From the NCBI GenBank assembly GCA_030620115.1, contig JAUXFG010000038.1:1-29378 (forward strand): a stretch of 29,378 nt of DNA. Direction: 5' to 3'. This stretch comes from Candidatus Fermentibacterota bacterium (GTDB lineage: Bacteria; JAFGKV01). Positions 20,205-29,032 of this stretch are shown one piece after another. Each line of letters opens with the position of its first letter. The first letter of the stretch is position 1. The notes under the pieces are model-generated. The model was given only the letters and a program-made list of their open reading frames with translations, was not told the DNA's origin and did not search any database. The position numbers and the translations under genes were made by a program.

Positions 20205-20285
20205 GTGTCATCCACAAGAATCACTCAACTGGAATTGGGTTATGGGAAGTCTCGAAGAAAATGAACACACGGAGGAAGGTCATTG

Positions 20286-21980
20286 ATGCCAAAATACGGT
20301 ACCAGTATACGTGCTGAGTCGCGGCCGGGAAGATGGATGACAGCCCGGCTGAACAGAATTCTGGTAGGTGTCTCTATCACTCTATGCTTCGTTATGTCAT
20401 GTGGTCCGGATAAGGATGTGGTTGCCACCTACCGAGGAGGTGAAATAAGGGCGAAGGATCTTGAGCTCAGGATCATGAGCTTGCCCGAAAGTCAAAGGCA
20501 TCCCGGTAAGAGCCAAAGCATGGAGGATTGGAAACGAAGGATAGCCGCTCAGCTATCACTTGAACGGACCCTCATACCTCCGGAGCGTCTTGTACCGGAA
20601 GACGGAGTTCTGCTGAGACCGGGCCCACGGCGACGACTGTTGGTCCGAGAGATGATGCAACGAGAAGGAACGAGACAGGTCGACGTTCCGGAAGACAGCC
20701 TTTTGGCCTACTACGAGCGGAACTGGGCACGGTTTTTCATACCGCCAGGTGTTACATTCCAACACGTCTTTTTACCCCTCTCGCAAGCTGCAACGCAAGC
20801 TGAGCGAGCACATGTGCGCGCCAGGGCTGAGTCGGTTCGTGCCCTTGCCGACGCCGGCGCCGACTTCGATGAGCTCGTTCAGCAGTTCTCGTCATCAGAA
20901 AGCAGAGGCTGGCAGGGGAGGGTCGGGATGATGTTCCGCGGCCAACTCCCCCCATCAATCGAGTCAGTGGTTTTTGCGCTTGACGAAGGAGACATGGGAG
21001 GCCCGCTCGTGACCGAGCATGGCTACCACATCTTCAAGGTCATCGAGCGCAGCCCCGAAGAGATGAAGCCATTCAAGGAAGTTGCGCCCAGGATCAGACG
21101 AGAACTGATGACGGCGCAGCTGGACTCCATGAGGGACGCTTTTGTGGATAGTCTTAGGCAGGAGATTACGGTGGAGCTCAAAGTGGGAGCGCTCATCGCT
21201 GATATTCCAGAGACGACTACGGTGTTTCGGGTGGGCGACGAGGCGGCAACAAAGGGTGAAGTCATGAGCTGGCTGGCCGCCCATGAAGTGATACCCAAAG
21301 ACCATGACGAACTCGAGCAGATTCTGCGAGGGGTTGCCATGGAAAGTCAGCTGTATCAGAAGGCGCTGGCGCTGGGGTTTGCTGAGGATGAGATCGCCAG
21401 GGAGCGATATCGAGCATGGATCGGCACGTCCTTCGTAGACAGTGTGCTCGGAAGCGGCCTCAACGCTGTGGCAATTGAGGCAGATATTCTACGCGGACAC
21501 TACGCCAAGCACCGTACAAGATTCGCCAAGCCCCAGACATGGCATGTTCGAGAAATAGTGATCCAGGGGACTGAGGATCAGCGTCTGCAGGCCTGGGAGA
21601 AGGCCAATGAGGTAGTCAAGCGTCTGCGGGACGAATCGTTTGCCGATTTGGCAAGAGCGCATTCATCGGCAGCCTCGGCGGGCAACGGTGGAGATCTAGG
21701 CGAGCTTACACTCCGCGAAACGGCCAAGCGAGGGCCAGGGTTTCAGAAGAGCCTGTTCTCTCTTGAGGAAGGTGAGATGAGCGATGTGGTGCGCATTGAC
21801 GGAGGGTATCTCATCTTGAAGTTGGAGAGCATCTCCGAGCCCGTAGAGAGAGACTATGCGGAGGTCATGGATCTGGTTCGCAACGACTATGTTGACAGGA
21901 ACAGGAGTTCGCTCCTCACAGAGTCGTTGGATCAACGGTTGCGCGAAATGACATTCCGCTACCATGGGGCGGGAACTTGA
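20286..21980 (+). CDS. Parvulin-type peptidyl-prolyl isomerase lipoprotein (two PpiC-like domains)
   Basis: Envelope folding factor of about 564 residues with two parvulin-like domains, in the SurA/PrsA manner. Domain 1 is near residues 150-260 (VTFQHVFLPLSQ, FDELVQQFSSSESRGWQGRV and GPLVTEHGYHIFKVIE). Domain 2 is near 410-520 (TWHVREIVIQ, FADLARAHSSAASAGNGGDL, FSLEEGEMSDVVRIDGGYLI). The N-terminal hydrophobic stretch ends in CFVMSCGPDKD, so a lipobox Cys and membrane anchoring are likely. ATG 20286 follows GGAGGAAGG (20271-20279). A later ATG at 20334 would give a shorter, more standard signal peptide. The stop overlaps the start of the following sulfatase-like lipoprotein gene (TTGA), so the pair is translationally coupled and this chaperone may help that protein fold. 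This last point is inference. Confidence 0.88.
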   Translation: MPKYGTSIRAESRPGRWMTARLNRILVGVSITLCFVMSCGPDKDVVATYRGGEIRAKDLELRIMSLPESQRHPGKSQSMEDWKRRIAAQLSLERTLIPPERLVPEDGVLLRPGPRRRLLVREMMQREGTRQVDVPEDSLLAYYERNWARFFIPPGVTFQHVFLPLSQAATQAERAHVRARAESVRALADAGADFDELVQQFSSSESRGWQGRVGMMFRGQLPPSIESVVFALDEGDMGGPLVTEHGYHIFKVIERSPEEMKPFKEVAPRIRRELMTAQLDSMRDAFVDSLRQEITVELKVGALIADIPETTTVFRVGDEAATKGEVMSWLAAHEVIPKDHDELEQILRGVAMESQLYQKALALGFAEDEIARERYRAWIGTSFVDSVLGSGLNAVAIEADILRGHYAKHRTRFAKPQTWHVREIVIQGTEDQRLQAWEKANEVVKRLRDESFADLARAHSSAASAGNGGDLGELTLRETAKRGPGFQKSLFSLEEGEMSDVVRIDGGYLILKLESISEPVERDYAEVMDLVRNDYVDRNRSSLLTESLDQRLREMTFRYHGAGT

Positions 21981-24082
21981 AGAAGTTCCGGTTCGGTCTT
22001 GTCTTTGGCGCTCTGGTCGCCGTGGGATGTAACGGGGGCCAACGTCCGAATCTGGTGCTTGTCACCATCGACACCTGCCGGGCGGACCGGCTCAGCTGCT
22101 ACGGTTATCAGCGAGAAACGACACCGAACCTTGATCGACTTGCGTCGGAAGGAGTTCTGTTTGAAGATGCGCGGACATGTGTTCCGATAACGCTTCCATC
22201 ACACGTCTCAATCATGACCGGACTCTATCCTGCCTTTCACGGAGTTCATGAGAATGGCCTCTACAAGGCTGCTGATTCGCTGCTGACCTTGGCAGAGATC
22301 TTGAAAGGGAACGGCTATGCCACGGCAGCGTTTGTAGGGTCGTTCCCCTTGGATTCCCGGTTCAATCTTGACCAAGGGTTCGACCATTACGGCGACTCTT
22401 TCGGCCAGCGGGAGGGACAAGACAAGCCGGCCATGGGCGGCGTCTCCATCTTTTTCGCGGAACGACCCGCCGATGAAGTGAATTGGGAGTTTTTTCACTG
22501 GCTCGAGGATCACGTCAAGGAACCGTTCTTCGTCTGGATCCACTACTTCGATCCCCATCAGCCCTTTGAGCCACGGCCCCCGTACGACGCCATGTTTGCC
22601 GGCAGGCCATACGACGCAGAGATCGCGTTTGTAGATGCGTGTGTCGGTCAACTGAGAGAACGACTTGAAGACACAGGTCTTCTGGAACGAACAATCCTGG
22701 CGATCACCGCGGATCACGGTGAGGCGCTTGGTGAACATGGCGAGCTCACCCACGCGCTTCTCCTCTACGATAGTACCCTACGGGTTCCCCTGATCTTGCG
22801 GTTCCCGCGACCTATGGGGATCATTGGCACAGTCAGAGAACCGGTGAGGACGGTGGATCTTGCTCCCACCCTCTTGGAACTGCTTGGGCTCGAGCCGCCG
22901 AGGACACTGCATGGAACGAGCGTCGTTGATCTTATCCACGGGGGGAAAAGGGCCGAGCATGATCATTATTACGAGACCTTTTATGGGAGACTACATTTTG
23001 GGTGGAGTGTGCTCTTGGGCTTTCAATCGGGCCCGTGGAAATACATCTATGGGCCAAAGCCTGAGCTCTATGATACCGTGGCCGATCCGGAGGAAAACAA
23101 GAATCAGGTTCACGCTTACCCTGATACCGCTGAAGCGCTCAAGGAGAAGCTGTTCTCGTTGATCTCACAGGCGCCTGAGGAAGGCCACGCAGCATTCAGC
23201 GATCCTGACAAAGAAACCGAGGCACGGCTCATAGCCCTCGGCTACGTGGGTTCATGGGAAAAGGCAGGGCACAAGACAAGTTGGTTCGATGGCGCCAATC
23301 CTATGGATATGATGGAAGCTCACGAATGGTATAACCTTGGGAGAGGATACGTTCACCAGGGACAGTGGCTCGAGGCGGCGCTTGCGTTCCGTCGAGCGTT
23401 ACAGGCAAACGAGCACAACAAGGATGCTCGTATCGGCCTTGTGAGTACGTTGCTGCATAGTGGTGATCATTCCGCCGCGCTGAAAGAGGCGGAAAAAACC
23501 GTAGCGCTATATCCAGAGCAAGGCGACGTGTGGATGATGCTCGCAGGATTGCTCTTTTTGCACGGGCGACATGACGAGGCGTTGCGCGCATCCCACAAAG
23601 GATTGGACAACGGTGGGGATCCGGTTGACGGCTGGATGATGGTCGGGCGATGCACGGAGCAGGCGGGGGATCATGCCAAAGCCGTTCAGGCCTACGAACG
23701 TATCCTGGAGATAGACCCGACGATTCTTCCAGCCCGGCTACGATTGGCTACCTGCCTGGCAAGGCTGGGGGGCATAGAGAACGCAGAGAACGAGTTCCGG
23801 TTGGCCATCCAAAACAGTCCATACTGGGCACCAGTGCACTACAACTTCGGTGTCTTCCTGCTGGATCACGACCGGACGGAGGAGGCGACGACCTCGTTCG
23901 AGCGCGCCGTACAGCTCAGTCCTACATACGCGGCGGCACATCACGCGCTTGCCATACTGTATCGTAAGGATGGCAAGAACGAGGCTGCTTTGCAGCACGT
24001 CGAAGCGGTGATTCGGTATGCCCGGGATCAAGAACGGCGCCACTCGGCTCTGACGCTCAAGAAGCAGCTCAAGGCGGGCTAA
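21977..24082 (+). CDS. Sulfatase-like alkaline-phosphatase-superfamily lipoprotein with TPR domain
   Basis: About 701 residues. A lipoprotein signal ends VAVGC (Cys 18). The sulfatase-fold domain (about residues 24-330) has LVLVTIDTCRADRLSCYGY (metal Asp about 32), TLPSHVSIMTG, and the second metal site ADHGEALGEHG. The position that carries Cys or Ser (later formylglycine) in true sulfatases is Thr 72 here, in T-L-P-S-H. Residues about 445-695 are tetratricopeptide repeats (AHEWYNLGRGYVHQGQWLEA, DVWMMLAGLLFLHGRHDEAL, APVHYNFGVFLLDHDRTEEA, AAAHHALAILYRKDGKNEAA). Thr nucleophiles occur in phospho-transferring relatives such as LtaS, so a phosphoester or phosphoglycan substrate is as plausible as a sulfate ester. 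It starts at TTG 21977 overlapping the parvulin stop. It is predicted to sit on the envelope, with TPRs for protein contacts. Confidence 0.85.
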   Translation: MKKFRFGLVFGALVAVGCNGGQRPNLVLVTIDTCRADRLSCYGYQRETTPNLDRLASEGVLFEDARTCVPITLPSHVSIMTGLYPAFHGVHENGLYKAADSLLTLAEILKGNGYATAAFVGSFPLDSRFNLDQGFDHYGDSFGQREGQDKPAMGGVSIFFAERPADEVNWEFFHWLEDHVKEPFFVWIHYFDPHQPFEPRPPYDAMFAGRPYDAEIAFVDACVGQLRERLEDTGLLERTILAITADHGEALGEHGELTHALLLYDSTLRVPLILRFPRPMGIIGTVREPVRTVDLAPTLLELLGLEPPRTLHGTSVVDLIHGGKRAEHDHYYETFYGRLHFGWSVLLGFQSGPWKYIYGPKPELYDTVADPEENKNQVHAYPDTAEALKEKLFSLISQAPEEGHAAFSDPDKETEARLIALGYVGSWEKAGHKTSWFDGANPMDMMEAHEWYNLGRGYVHQGQWLEAALAFRRALQANEHNKDARIGLVSTLLHSGDHSAALKEAEKTVALYPEQGDVWMMLAGLLFLHGRHDEALRASHKGLDNGGDPVDGWMMVGRCTEQAGDHAKAVQAYERILEIDPTILPARLRLATCLARLGGIENAENEFRLAIQNSPYWAPVHYNFGVFLLDHDRTEEATTSFERAVQLSPTYAAAHHALAILYRKDGKNEAALQHVEAVIRYARDQERRHSALTLKKQLKAG

Positions 24083-25475: not shown

Positions 25476-26882
25476 ATGAGACCGAAGCTTTCTGGAGTGT
25501 GGGCGGTACCAACAGTTGTGGGGCTCATCGCGATCGTCTCAATTGTCCTGCATCGATCGGTTTTCCACAGCGCTCACTACCGGTTTCGAGACTGCAATGT
25601 ACTGCTCATATCCATTGACACCTTAAGGCCGGATCATCTCCACTGCTATGGCTATGACCGGCGCACCAGTCAAGCCGTGGACCAGCTTGCGGCCGACGGC
25701 GTATTGTTCAAAACAGCCATTGCCCAGGCGCCATCAACCCTGCCTTCGCATGCCTCCATGTTCACGTCACTGATCCCCTCGCACCATGGCGCGTTTCACC
25801 ATGCTGGTGCACGCGTGGCATCAAGCGTGCCGACCATGGCGGAGATTCTATTGTCTCATGGGTATCGAACCGCGGGCTTCCACGGCGGTGGTCAGATGTC
25901 CCCAGCCTATGGTCTGGATCGAGGCTTTGAATCCTACAAGCTGATTCTAGGAGAACACCTCGAACAGGTCGTGGATGAGGCGACGGCGTGGTTGGAGTCT
26001 TCCGGGTCAGAGAAGTTCTTCATGTTCCTCCATACTTATGAGGTTCATGTTCCCTATCGTGCACCACCAGAATATCTGGCTCGATTCGAGGACCACTACG
26101 CCGGAGATCTTCCGGATACGATCAGAATAGACCTTCTTGACGAGATCAACTTTGGTGATCGTGCAATAGATGAGCAGGATCTGGGTCATATTGTCAGCGC
26201 ATACGATACAGCCATCTTCACCATGGATCGAGCACTCGGACGGCTCATAGATTTTCTGAAGAGGAACGAGATTTACGATAATACGATAATCATCTTCACG
26301 TCAGACCATGGTGAGGAGTTCAGAGAGCATGGGAAAGTTGGGTATCATTGTCATACGGTATATGATGAACTTATCAAGGTTCCTATGATCACGAAGTTTC
26401 CGCGAAGCATGTTTGCGTCGACCGTCATTGAGGAGCAGGTTCGAAGCATTGACATCTTGCCTACCATCCTCGATCTCCTCGCCATGAACTCCAGCACTGG
26501 ATTCGATGGAGCCAGCATGCTCCCTTTGATGGTTCGGGGACGAACGCAGTCAATGCCACGACGCTTGGAGGATGATGATCTCTTCGCACTCAGCGAACGC
26601 GATGACGCAGCCGGACCGCACCATATTATGTCGATTAGGACGGGTGAGATGAAGTTGTATGTTATCAAGAAAGGAGACAAGATCGTAAGAAGGATGCTGT
26701 ATTATTTGAGCGATGATCCGAAGGAGGAGCGGAATCTATTGAGTAGTCACAAGCAGCTTGCGGATTCGCTCTGGCGTCAATTTGAAAGAATGAAAGCCCA
26801 AAGAAGCTGTCCACCACTTGAGTCTGCCAAAATCGATGAGGAAACACGCGAAAGGCTCAGGAGTCTTGGGTACGTTCAGTAG
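25476..26882 (+). CDS. Membrane-anchored sulfatase-like hydrolase or transferase
   Basis: 468 residues with an N-terminal membrane anchor (VWAVPTVVGLIAIVSIVL, about 8-25) and an external sulfatase-fold domain. Motifs: NVLLISIDTLRPDHLHCYGY (metal Asp about 48), STLPSHASMFTS with Thr 88 at the position of the formylglycine precursor, FLHTYEVHVPY, and SDHGEEFREHGK. Like the 21977-24082 product it therefore lacks Cys/Ser for formylglycine, so chemistry through Thr (as in phosphoglycerol or phosphoethanolamine transferases) should be considered. It ends with the familiar RLRSLGYVQ tail of this subfamily; there is no TPR domain. ATG 25476 lacks a strong ribosome site. It is transcribed away from the secreted-protein gene and converges on the receiver-DnaA gene. 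The substrate is unknown. Confidence 0.85.
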   Translation: MRPKLSGVWAVPTVVGLIAIVSIVLHRSVFHSAHYRFRDCNVLLISIDTLRPDHLHCYGYDRRTSQAVDQLAADGVLFKTAIAQAPSTLPSHASMFTSLIPSHHGAFHHAGARVASSVPTMAEILLSHGYRTAGFHGGGQMSPAYGLDRGFESYKLILGEHLEQVVDEATAWLESSGSEKFFMFLHTYEVHVPYRAPPEYLARFEDHYAGDLPDTIRIDLLDEINFGDRAIDEQDLGHIVSAYDTAIFTMDRALGRLIDFLKRNEIYDNTIIIFTSDHGEEFREHGKVGYHCHTVYDELIKVPMITKFPRSMFASTVIEEQVRSIDILPTILDLLAMNSSTGFDGASMLPLMVRGRTQSMPRRLEDDDLFALSERDDAAGPHHIMSIRTGEMKLYVIKKGDKIVRRMLYYLSDDPKEERNLLSSHKQLADSLWRQFERMKAQRSCPPLESAKIDEETRERLRSLGYVQ

Positions 26883-27184: not shown

Positions 27185-29032
27185 CTATCGATTCCCATGA
27201 TGCAAGGCTATTCGAAGCCATTCTCGACAATCGTGTCCATTCACAACAGAAGCCAAGACAAGGGGAGCTTCCTCTGGGATTCTGAACAATTTCCGCATGC
27301 TGGTCAACAGGATTCCCCTGGCTCCCTTGTCCTGGTAGTATTCAACAAGACTCGCAACGAAGACAACAACCAGACCTCTATCGGAAGGAATCGAAGCGAT
27401 TAGGTTGCGGACTTCCGGGATTCTTGGCGTAGGACTGTCGAGCATCACAAGGAACACGGGCTTCTTGTTTCCATCAATCGCTTTATCAAGCTCGTCGCCT
27501 TTGCGCCACTGGTTCGTGCCCATGAGAATCCACTTGGGCCGGCTGCAATCTCTGTGCACCAGGTATGCCCACCGATCACCTTCAGGGATTAGAGACATCT
27601 GCCCTTCAAGCCCTGACAATGCGTCAACAACGTCCGCCACCAATGCTCCAGAGGTTCCCAGCACAATGACTGGCTGCGCTCCGACCCGTGGGATCTCCGG
27701 GCCGACTTCTTCAGGAAGTCCCCATGCTCTCATCACCTGAAGTTCGCGTGACAGTTCCTTGACCAGGTGACCGGCAGCCTCCGCTGTTCTGTCCATTGAA
27801 TCTGATACTTTATCGGCGCCTGCCGCCGCACTCCCTCGATCTCGAGTCTCCCCGGATCCCGGCGTCGGGTCCGACTTGACGCTCGTCTCGCTTACCTGTC
27901 GTATGACATCGTCGACGATCTTCTCATCGATCGACACTCCTCCCAGGGCTTGCATAGCCACCAGCTTCTTGGCAATTCCTTCGAGCGTTCGGACATCCGA
28001 TATGACACGATTGGCTATGCGGTCGAGCAGAAGATCCGGGATCGGCCAGTTCTTCTTTCTTGCTTTTGTCCGCAATATTGTTGATCTCAAAGCAGCCGTG
28101 GGGGGACCAATCTCGCCGACGAGGCCAACGCCGAATCTGCGGCTGATCTCCGTCGTGATGGAACGTATCTCTTCAGGCCGTCTGTCACTGCATATCATGA
28201 TTTGCCTCTCGTTGTTGTACATCGCCGAGAGGATATCCGCAGCCACTGCTTGAAGGCTTGGCGATATGGCAAGAAACTGAATATCATCTATGAAGAACAT
28301 ATCGGATTGTAGATACGATCTCTTGAGTTCCTCCACCTTCCGGTTCTCATAAGCATCCAGGATCTGATCGCTGAAGACCTGTGACGTGAGATACAAGGCC
28401 CTGATGGAGTTGTCCCTCTCAAAGGCCGCGTTTGCCACGGCACACATCAGATGTGTTTTTCCTCTGCCGGGTCCTCCGTAGAGGAACAGAGGATTGAATC
28501 GCCAGCCGGGGCGCTCTGATACATCCTTTGCTGCTTCGTATGCCTTCCGATTCTCATCACCGATAATGAAGTCCTCGAACTTGTGGCTCGCGAACAGTTC
28601 TAGGCCCTCCTCAGCAAATGGACCTTGTGCGGCTGTCTCGGTTTTTTTCTTAAGAAGCTCCACCTGCCTGAGCATGGCTTTCACTCTGACGACCAACAGA
28701 TTCATCTCGAATGGCTTCGCGATGTAGTCATCAGCGCCAAGCTCCAGGCCTTTGATCTGATCGGCGATCGTGCCTTTTCCGCTCAACATGATGAAGGGGG
28801 TACTCGCAATGAAAGGATCTTTCCGCATCATCTGAATGAGTTCAAGGCCGTCGATTCTCGGCATCAGGATATCACTGATGACCAGATCCGGGTGTTCGGT
28901 TCTGATCGTTTCGAGGCCTTTCTCTCCATCTGTCGCGGTCAGCACTTCGAATCCTTCATTCTCCAATGCACGGGTGAGCAGGCTCAGGATGCTGACTTCA
29001 TCATCGATGGCCAGGATTCTTCCGGTGGTCAC
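27185..29032 (-). CDS. Response-regulator receiver fused to DnaA-type AAA+ ATPase
   Basis: 615-residue fusion. Residues 5-120 are a complete receiver domain: acidic pair Asp10-Asp11, phospho-acceptor Asp54 (VISDILMP), Ser84 and Lys106 (AKPF). Residues about 150-385 are a DnaA-type AAA+ core: FEDFIIGDENRKAYEAA, Walker A GGPGRGKTHL (186-195), Walker B FFIDDIQFL (246-254), sensor 1 QIMICSD (277-283), arginine finger SRRF (297-300) and sensor 2 Arg348 in DVRTLEG. There is no sigma-54-activator GAFTGA loop and no DnaA domain IV helix-turn-helix. A Ser/Gly/Asp-rich linker (about 395-430) leads to an unrecognised alpha/beta region (about 430-615). GTG 29032 has GGGGAG 8 bases upstream. Probably cytoplasmic, ATP-dependent and phosphorylation-controlled. 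The partner kinase is not in the window. Its targets, whether replication, transcription or another AAA+ protein, are unknown. Confidence 0.92.
   Translation of the reverse strand: MTTGRILAIDDEVSILSLLTRALENEGFEVLTATDGEKGLETIRTEHPDLVISDILMPRIDGLELIQMMRKDPFIASTPFIMLSGKGTIADQIKGLELGADDYIAKPFEMNLLVVRVKAMLRQVELLKKKTETAAQGPFAEEGLELFASHKFEDFIIGDENRKAYEAAKDVSERPGWRFNPLFLYGGPGRGKTHLMCAVANAAFERDNSIRALYLTSQVFSDQILDAYENRKVEELKRSYLQSDMFFIDDIQFLAISPSLQAVAADILSAMYNNERQIMICSDRRPEEIRSITTEISRRFGVGLVGEIGPPTAALRSTILRTKARKKNWPIPDLLLDRIANRVISDVRTLEGIAKKLVAMQALGGVSIDEKIVDDVIRQVSETSVKSDPTPGSGETRDRGSAAAGADKVSDSMDRTAEAAGHLVKELSRELQVMRAWGLPEEVGPEIPRVGAQPVIVLGTSGALVADVVDALSGLEGQMSLIPEGDRWAYLVHRDCSRPKWILMGTNQWRKGDELDKAIDGNKKPVFLVMLDSPTPRIPEVRNLIASIPSDRGLVVVFVASLVEYYQDKGARGILLTSMRKLFRIPEEAPLVLASVVNGHDCREWLRIALHHGNR

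Follow-up and report, generated by a model that had tools for sequence, protein, structure and literature searches.

What is a response regulator for when its receiver is joined to the ATPase of a replication initiator? DnaA is usually regarded as an initiator of replication that is essential and has few relatives (Hda, DnaC/IstB), and neither DnaA nor Hda carries a receiver; a reading frame of a Candidatus Fermentibacterota bacterium encodes this combination. It lies in a stretch of 29,378 nucleotides (here the window) that is the complete contig C65 of a 4.1 Mb genome, 98% complete. The first-pass annotation described an intact receiver followed by a DnaA-clade AAA+ ATPase, and suggested that phosphorylation may switch its assembly in replication or a DnaA-related process. 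The minus-strand open reading frame at 27185-29032 is intact in translation and in an alignment of 12 family members, and has the following features.

27185..29032, minus strand: whole gene, 615 aa with a GTG start; receiver, DnaA-type AAA+ and predicted C-terminal G-domain-like region.
28682..29017, minus strand: receiver domain, residues 6-117 (Pfam PF00072 Response_reg, E 3e-29).
28871..28873, minus strand: D54, predicted phosphorylation site, placed by receiver-family alignment; invariant in 12/12.
28589..28681, minus strand: linker, residues 118-148, less conserved (mean pairwise identity 0.40 over residues 124-145).
27893..28588, minus strand: DnaA-type AAA+ core and lid, residues 149-380 (PF00308, E 1e-43; DnaA in the PDB, E 1e-42).
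28451..28477, minus strand: Walker A GGPGRGKTH, residues 186-194; G186, G189, G191, K192 and T193 invariant in 12/12.
28280..28300, minus strand: Walker B MFFIDDI, residues 245-251; D249/D250 invariant.
28253..28270, minus strand: AISPSL, residues 255-260, in place of the basic ssDNA-binding segment of DnaA.
28133..28150, minus strand: box VII EISRRF, residues 295-300; R299 is the R285-equivalent, and E295 stands at the R281-equivalent.
27989..27991, minus strand: sensor 2 arginine R348, invariant in 12/12.
27734..27892, minus strand: variable linker, residues 381-433 (residues 385-433 with 0 invariant columns and mean pairwise identity 0.19).
27197..27733, minus strand: C-terminal domain, residues 434-612, 20 of 179 positions invariant; predicted Ras/TRAFAC-like G-domain fold without a P-loop.

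Domain searches recovered both parts of the fusion. The receiver is intact, as first described: D10, D11, D54 and K106 are invariant across the 12 relatives, and S84 is Ser or Thr. The ATPase matched Bac_DnaA at residues 149-305 (Pfam, E 1e-43) and the NCBIfam DnaA model over residues 128-384 (E 4e-67, with a score under the equivalog cut-off), and the PDB chains nearest to it were the DnaA proteins of B. subtilis, T. maritima and A. aeolicus. Neither Bac_DnaA_C nor Sigma54_activat was matched in the protein with Pfam, in agreement with the reported lack of domain IV and of the GAFTGA loop, and the domain search gave no HTH. We rejected an NtrC-type AAA+, because Sigma54_activat has no match here while PilR-like controls match it clearly. 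A single-sequence structural model of the whole protein had a pLDDT of 38 and was set aside.

The receiver-DnaA architecture is real and conserved. Twelve full-length members, the window protein included, were found, four in each of three genomes of its family (the window genome, G000, and two relatives, G001 and G002), and they are 43-56% identical to the window protein; by sequence comparison, the conservation of the receiver-DnaA-C-terminal family is far above chance. Since both family relatives hold the same protein set, contamination or an assembly artefact was ruled out. Each genome also encodes two further proteins with a receiver and a DnaA module but without the C-terminal domain. In all, the two near-complete genomes of this small lineage hold 12 and 13 DnaA-type domains, only one of which in each carries domain IV. 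Outside the family, 383 genomes gave no receiver-DnaA fusion at E 1e-47, a cut-off that a divergent fusion could escape, and no copy of the C-terminal domain with a 12-row profile; nor did the small phyla to which G026 and G240 belong yield the fusion. A scan of genome contigs matched a single DnaA of an uncultured Bacilli bacterium, and a scan of viral contigs gave one weak AAA+ match. A literature search among open-licence papers found neither receiver-DnaA nor MshEN-DnaA proteins described.

The C-terminal domain had gone undescribed in the first-pass annotation, which was right that domain IV is missing from this end but overlooked a separate conserved domain at residues 434-612. It has no Pfam match. 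A profile of the 12 sequences weakly matched the GTPase Der (E 0.01), and in profile comparison the domain scored 27 against GTPases, versus 11-19 for three control domains. A single-sequence model of low confidence (pLDDT 48.6) had the strand-helix order of small GTPases; with this model the best Foldseek rows were Rab/Arf/Sar-type GTPases, and with a second structural aligner nearly all rows shown were G-domain proteins, B. subtilis Der coming first (Z 8.3). The resemblance to a Ras-like G domain is weak, and we take that fold as likely. The P-loop GxxxxGK[ST] is absent from the alignment, where all 12 members have a GTSGALVAD-like sequence instead.

We then compared AAA+ motifs in an alignment of the 12 relatives with 41 DnaAs having domain IV, to which DnaA and Hda of E. 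coli were added. All 12 relatives keep both Walker motifs and sensors 1 and 2, with K192/T193, D249/D250, D283/R284 and R348 (sensor 2) invariant. Box VII arginines of DnaA (R281 and R285 in E. coli numbering) serve assembly. The R281-equivalent, present in 41/41 true DnaAs, is lost from every relative, which have Glu or Gly there; the arginine finger equivalent to R285, likewise present in 41/41, is kept in 3 of the 12, the window protein (R299) among them. Basic residues of DnaA in the region of E. coli K243/R245 serve ssDNA binding. The K243-equivalent is Lys in 39 of the 41 true DnaAs and Ser in all 12 relatives; the R245-equivalent is also Ser in 12/12, at a position that varies among true DnaAs too, and the DnaA segment "GKERTQ" reads "ISPSLQ" in the receiver-DnaA family. 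The motif set that had been called complete is therefore so for the Walker motifs and sensors, but not for the arginine finger (3/12) or the R281-equivalent (0/12). Because the ATP motifs are kept, while R281 and the basic ssDNA-binding residues are lost and R285 mostly so, the family looks able to bind ATP and unable to form a DnaA filament on DNA.

The same residues bear on the possibility that the phosphorylated protein oligomerizes through its AAA+ module and works at promoters. Most response regulators control transcription, and NtrC-type regulators resemble the window protein in having a receiver and then an AAA+ ATPase; the window protein differs from them in the DnaA clade of its ATPase and in its lack of Sigma54_activat and HTH. 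As no DNA-binding domain was found among those sought (HTH, Bac_DnaA_C, Sigma54_activat) and the family has lost the basic residues by which DnaA binds ssDNA, a role in transcription seems improbable.

In a quick tree, the receiver-DnaA-C-terminal proteins formed one group (support 99), and the non-replicative DnaA modules of several phyla clustered (support 87-91), with the organism's own dnaA falling outside them. The MshEN-DnaA proteins described below grouped with the receiver-DnaA proteins. Their kinship is not proven, because a tree in which the organism's own dnaA joins the receiver-DnaA proteins was not rejected (p-AU 0.46).

We also inspected the gene neighbourhoods of such modules. 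The window copy is an orphan: the 29 kb window holds no kinase, pilus or MglA genes. HisKA or Hpt genes adjoin three other ortholog groups of the family. A HisKA-HATPase gene ends 3 bases before the paralog on contig C253, an arrangement conserved in both relatives; upstream of the pair G001:C126/G002:C168 lies a REC-REC-Hpt gene, and downstream of it a gene for a PAS protein; and a cNMP-HisKA-HATPase gene lies directly downstream of the pair G001:C78/G002:C49. The other genes noted in the window, at 20283-24082 and 25476-26882, encode a tandem PPIase protein together with two members of the sulfatase family, of which one has TPR repeats; all are ordinary by Pfam.

Related modules have a different input domain. 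MshEN is known from PilB/MshE-type ATPases, and some of its members bind c-di-GMP. The window genome encodes several MshEN-DnaA proteins, mostly within its type IV pilus cluster, together with pilB, pilT, pilC, pilS, pilR and a prepilin peptidase gene. In other phyla, an MshEN-DnaA gene is found directly upstream of pilB-pilT-pilS-pilR-pilC in three genomes (G026, G173 and G311), and in two more (G118 and G255) it shares one operon with genes for MglA (by an Arf/Ras match), Roadblock and DUF4388. The fusion occurs also in G131, G268 and G382. Elsewhere, G107 has twin-DnaA proteins, one of them near a DUF4388 gene, and G240 has a DnaA-type protein near a T2SSE (PilT-like) gene. Like the window protein, the MshEN-DnaA proteins of pilus clusters pair the same class of AAA+ with an input domain that precedes it at the N-terminus; the input is MshEN, not a receiver, and several of them retain the DnaA arginines. 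The window protein may also share with MglA/Roadblock/PATAN(DUF4388) modules, alongside which DnaA-type modules are encoded in G118, G255 and G107, the Ras-like fold suspected in its C-terminal domain. It differs from them in having no P-loop, and MglA was not found in the window genome, although it is present in both family relatives.

Several individual proteins of this class were recorded along the way. A protein of 1993 aa in the window genome (contig C14; L018:9942-15923), inside the pilus cluster, carries MshEN and a DnaA-type AAA+ at both ends, with a long repetitive charged region between. Proteins of 1750-2132 aa (L123:9958-16356, L133:8725-14085, L134:4480-9732) have a C-terminal DnaA-type AAA+; that of L123 contains long TPR arrays, and its N-terminus looks by eye like a DnaG-type CHC2 zinc finger. 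Twin-DnaA proteins with two AAA+ modules each are encoded at L124:5392-7497, close to a DUF4388 gene, and at L125:5924-8017. In the protein at L127:5729-7588 a DnaA-type AAA+ leads into a long region of low complexity, and a hydrophobic segment at the C-terminus looks as if it spans the membrane. At L128:6293-8155, L129:5932-7767, L130 and L132 are DnaA-type proteins of 530-620 aa that lack domain IV and have an N-terminal region with no assignment; receivers are encoded nearby at L128 and L129, and a T2SSE gene at L129. At L211:8363-13521 and L215:6337-11502, in two genomes of one family, the operon runs AAA_22, Roadblock, MglA, DUF4388, MshEN-DnaA, DUF4388.

Does the window protein nevertheless act in replication? 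A normal dnaA with domain IV and a clear Bac_DnaA_C match is present on contig C78 of the same genome, and the genes around it read, by sequence, as dnaN, recF and gyrB. We therefore rejected the idea that the window gene is a true or misannotated dnaA: domain IV is missing and the real dnaA is elsewhere. In the two relatives, one pair of orthologs (G001:C126 and G002:C168) is 12-14 kb away from dnaA, with other genes between; for this reason we considered whether the window gene lies beside dnaA across a contig break; the compared neighbours gave no support.

Compared with DnaA (TIGR00362; PF00308 + PF08299), with which it shares an AAA+ module having Walker A/B and sensors 1/2, the window protein has a receiver for domains I/II, no domain IV (the part that binds DnaA boxes) and an extra C-terminal domain; its family has neither the R281-equivalent nor the basic residues for ssDNA binding, and its gene is not at the dnaA locus. 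It resembles Hda in being a DnaA-type AAA+ without domain IV, but adds the receiver and the C-terminal domain, and the clamp-binding motif, which Hda bears on a small protein of one domain, is not conserved at the N-terminus of the family, which is a receiver (alignment, by eye). The arginine finger with which Hda stimulates ATP hydrolysis by DnaA, and which an Hda-like role requires, is present in the window protein (R299) and absent from 9 of the 12 relatives. A brake of the DnaA/Hda kind or a helicase loader, gated by phosphorylation and acting on the organism's DnaA, would fit the DnaA-clade ATPase with intact ATP motifs, the retained R299, the ortholog pair near dnaA and shared ancestry with the dnaA of its own genome, which the tree test allows. 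Such a role is hard to reconcile with the residues lost across the family, the receiver where domain I would be, the additional C-terminal domain, the four paralogs in each genome, and AAA+-class relatives that sit with pilus, MglA/Roadblock/DUF4388 or PilT-like genes. We consider it very doubtful. The replication/Hda reading is thus weakened; of the proposed phospho-switched assembly, phospho-control stays plausible, with kinase and Hpt genes adjoining several paralogs, and the tie to replication is not supported.

Instead, we tentatively favour, at just short of an even chance, a non-replicative, phosphorylation-gated DnaA-type ATP switch that acts on proteins, probably those of a surface or polarity machine. 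We infer for the window protein an orphan response regulator whose effector would be a non-replicative DnaA-type AAA+ ATPase. A partner histidine kinase would phosphorylate D54, which would alter either the nucleotide-bound form of the AAA+ module or the faces it exposes; this module would serve as a protein-directed ATP switch and not as a DNA-bound filament, and the C-terminal G-domain-like region, lacking a P-loop, may provide a docking surface. Type IV pili or MglA/Roadblock-type systems are the likely clients, because AAA+ relatives of the same class are encoded with those genes; it is these relatives, not the neighbours of the window gene, that suggest the link to surface and polarity.

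A phosphorylation-gated AAA+ chaperone or remodeller, with paralogs serving different pathways and no common link to surface machines, would account for paralog neighbourhoods that are unrelated (a subtilase/amidohydrolase operon, glycosyltransferase/polysaccharide genes, sulfatases) and kinases that differ, as well as for the variety of partners to which DnaA-type modules are fused, among them the long TPR arrays of other phyla. Against it stand the repeated linkage of MshEN-DnaA relatives to pili or MglA and the G-domain-like C-terminus, which fits a polarity/surface theme, if weakly. We regard this alternative as unlikely, though a serious one.

The switch acting on surface or polarity proteins may belong to a broader pattern. 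With its DNA-working parts gone and related proteins encoded beside pilus and cell-polarity genes, the engine of replication seems to have been turned into a switch for signalling. Possibly, though at somewhat less than an even chance, the DnaA AAA+ engine has been reused across several phyla as a general non-replicative switch, fused to receivers, MshEN, G-domain-like or TPR partners and coupling two-component and perhaps c-di-GMP signals to type IV pili and MglA polarity, with the window protein as its two-component-controlled form. Among the DnaA-type domains without domain IV are some with an input for phosphorylation or, judged by the domain type, for c-di-GMP. If the reading is true, response regulators would gain a type of output for which the literature search found no description, and an AAA+ engine known for its work on DNA would have become a signalling switch for surface machines.
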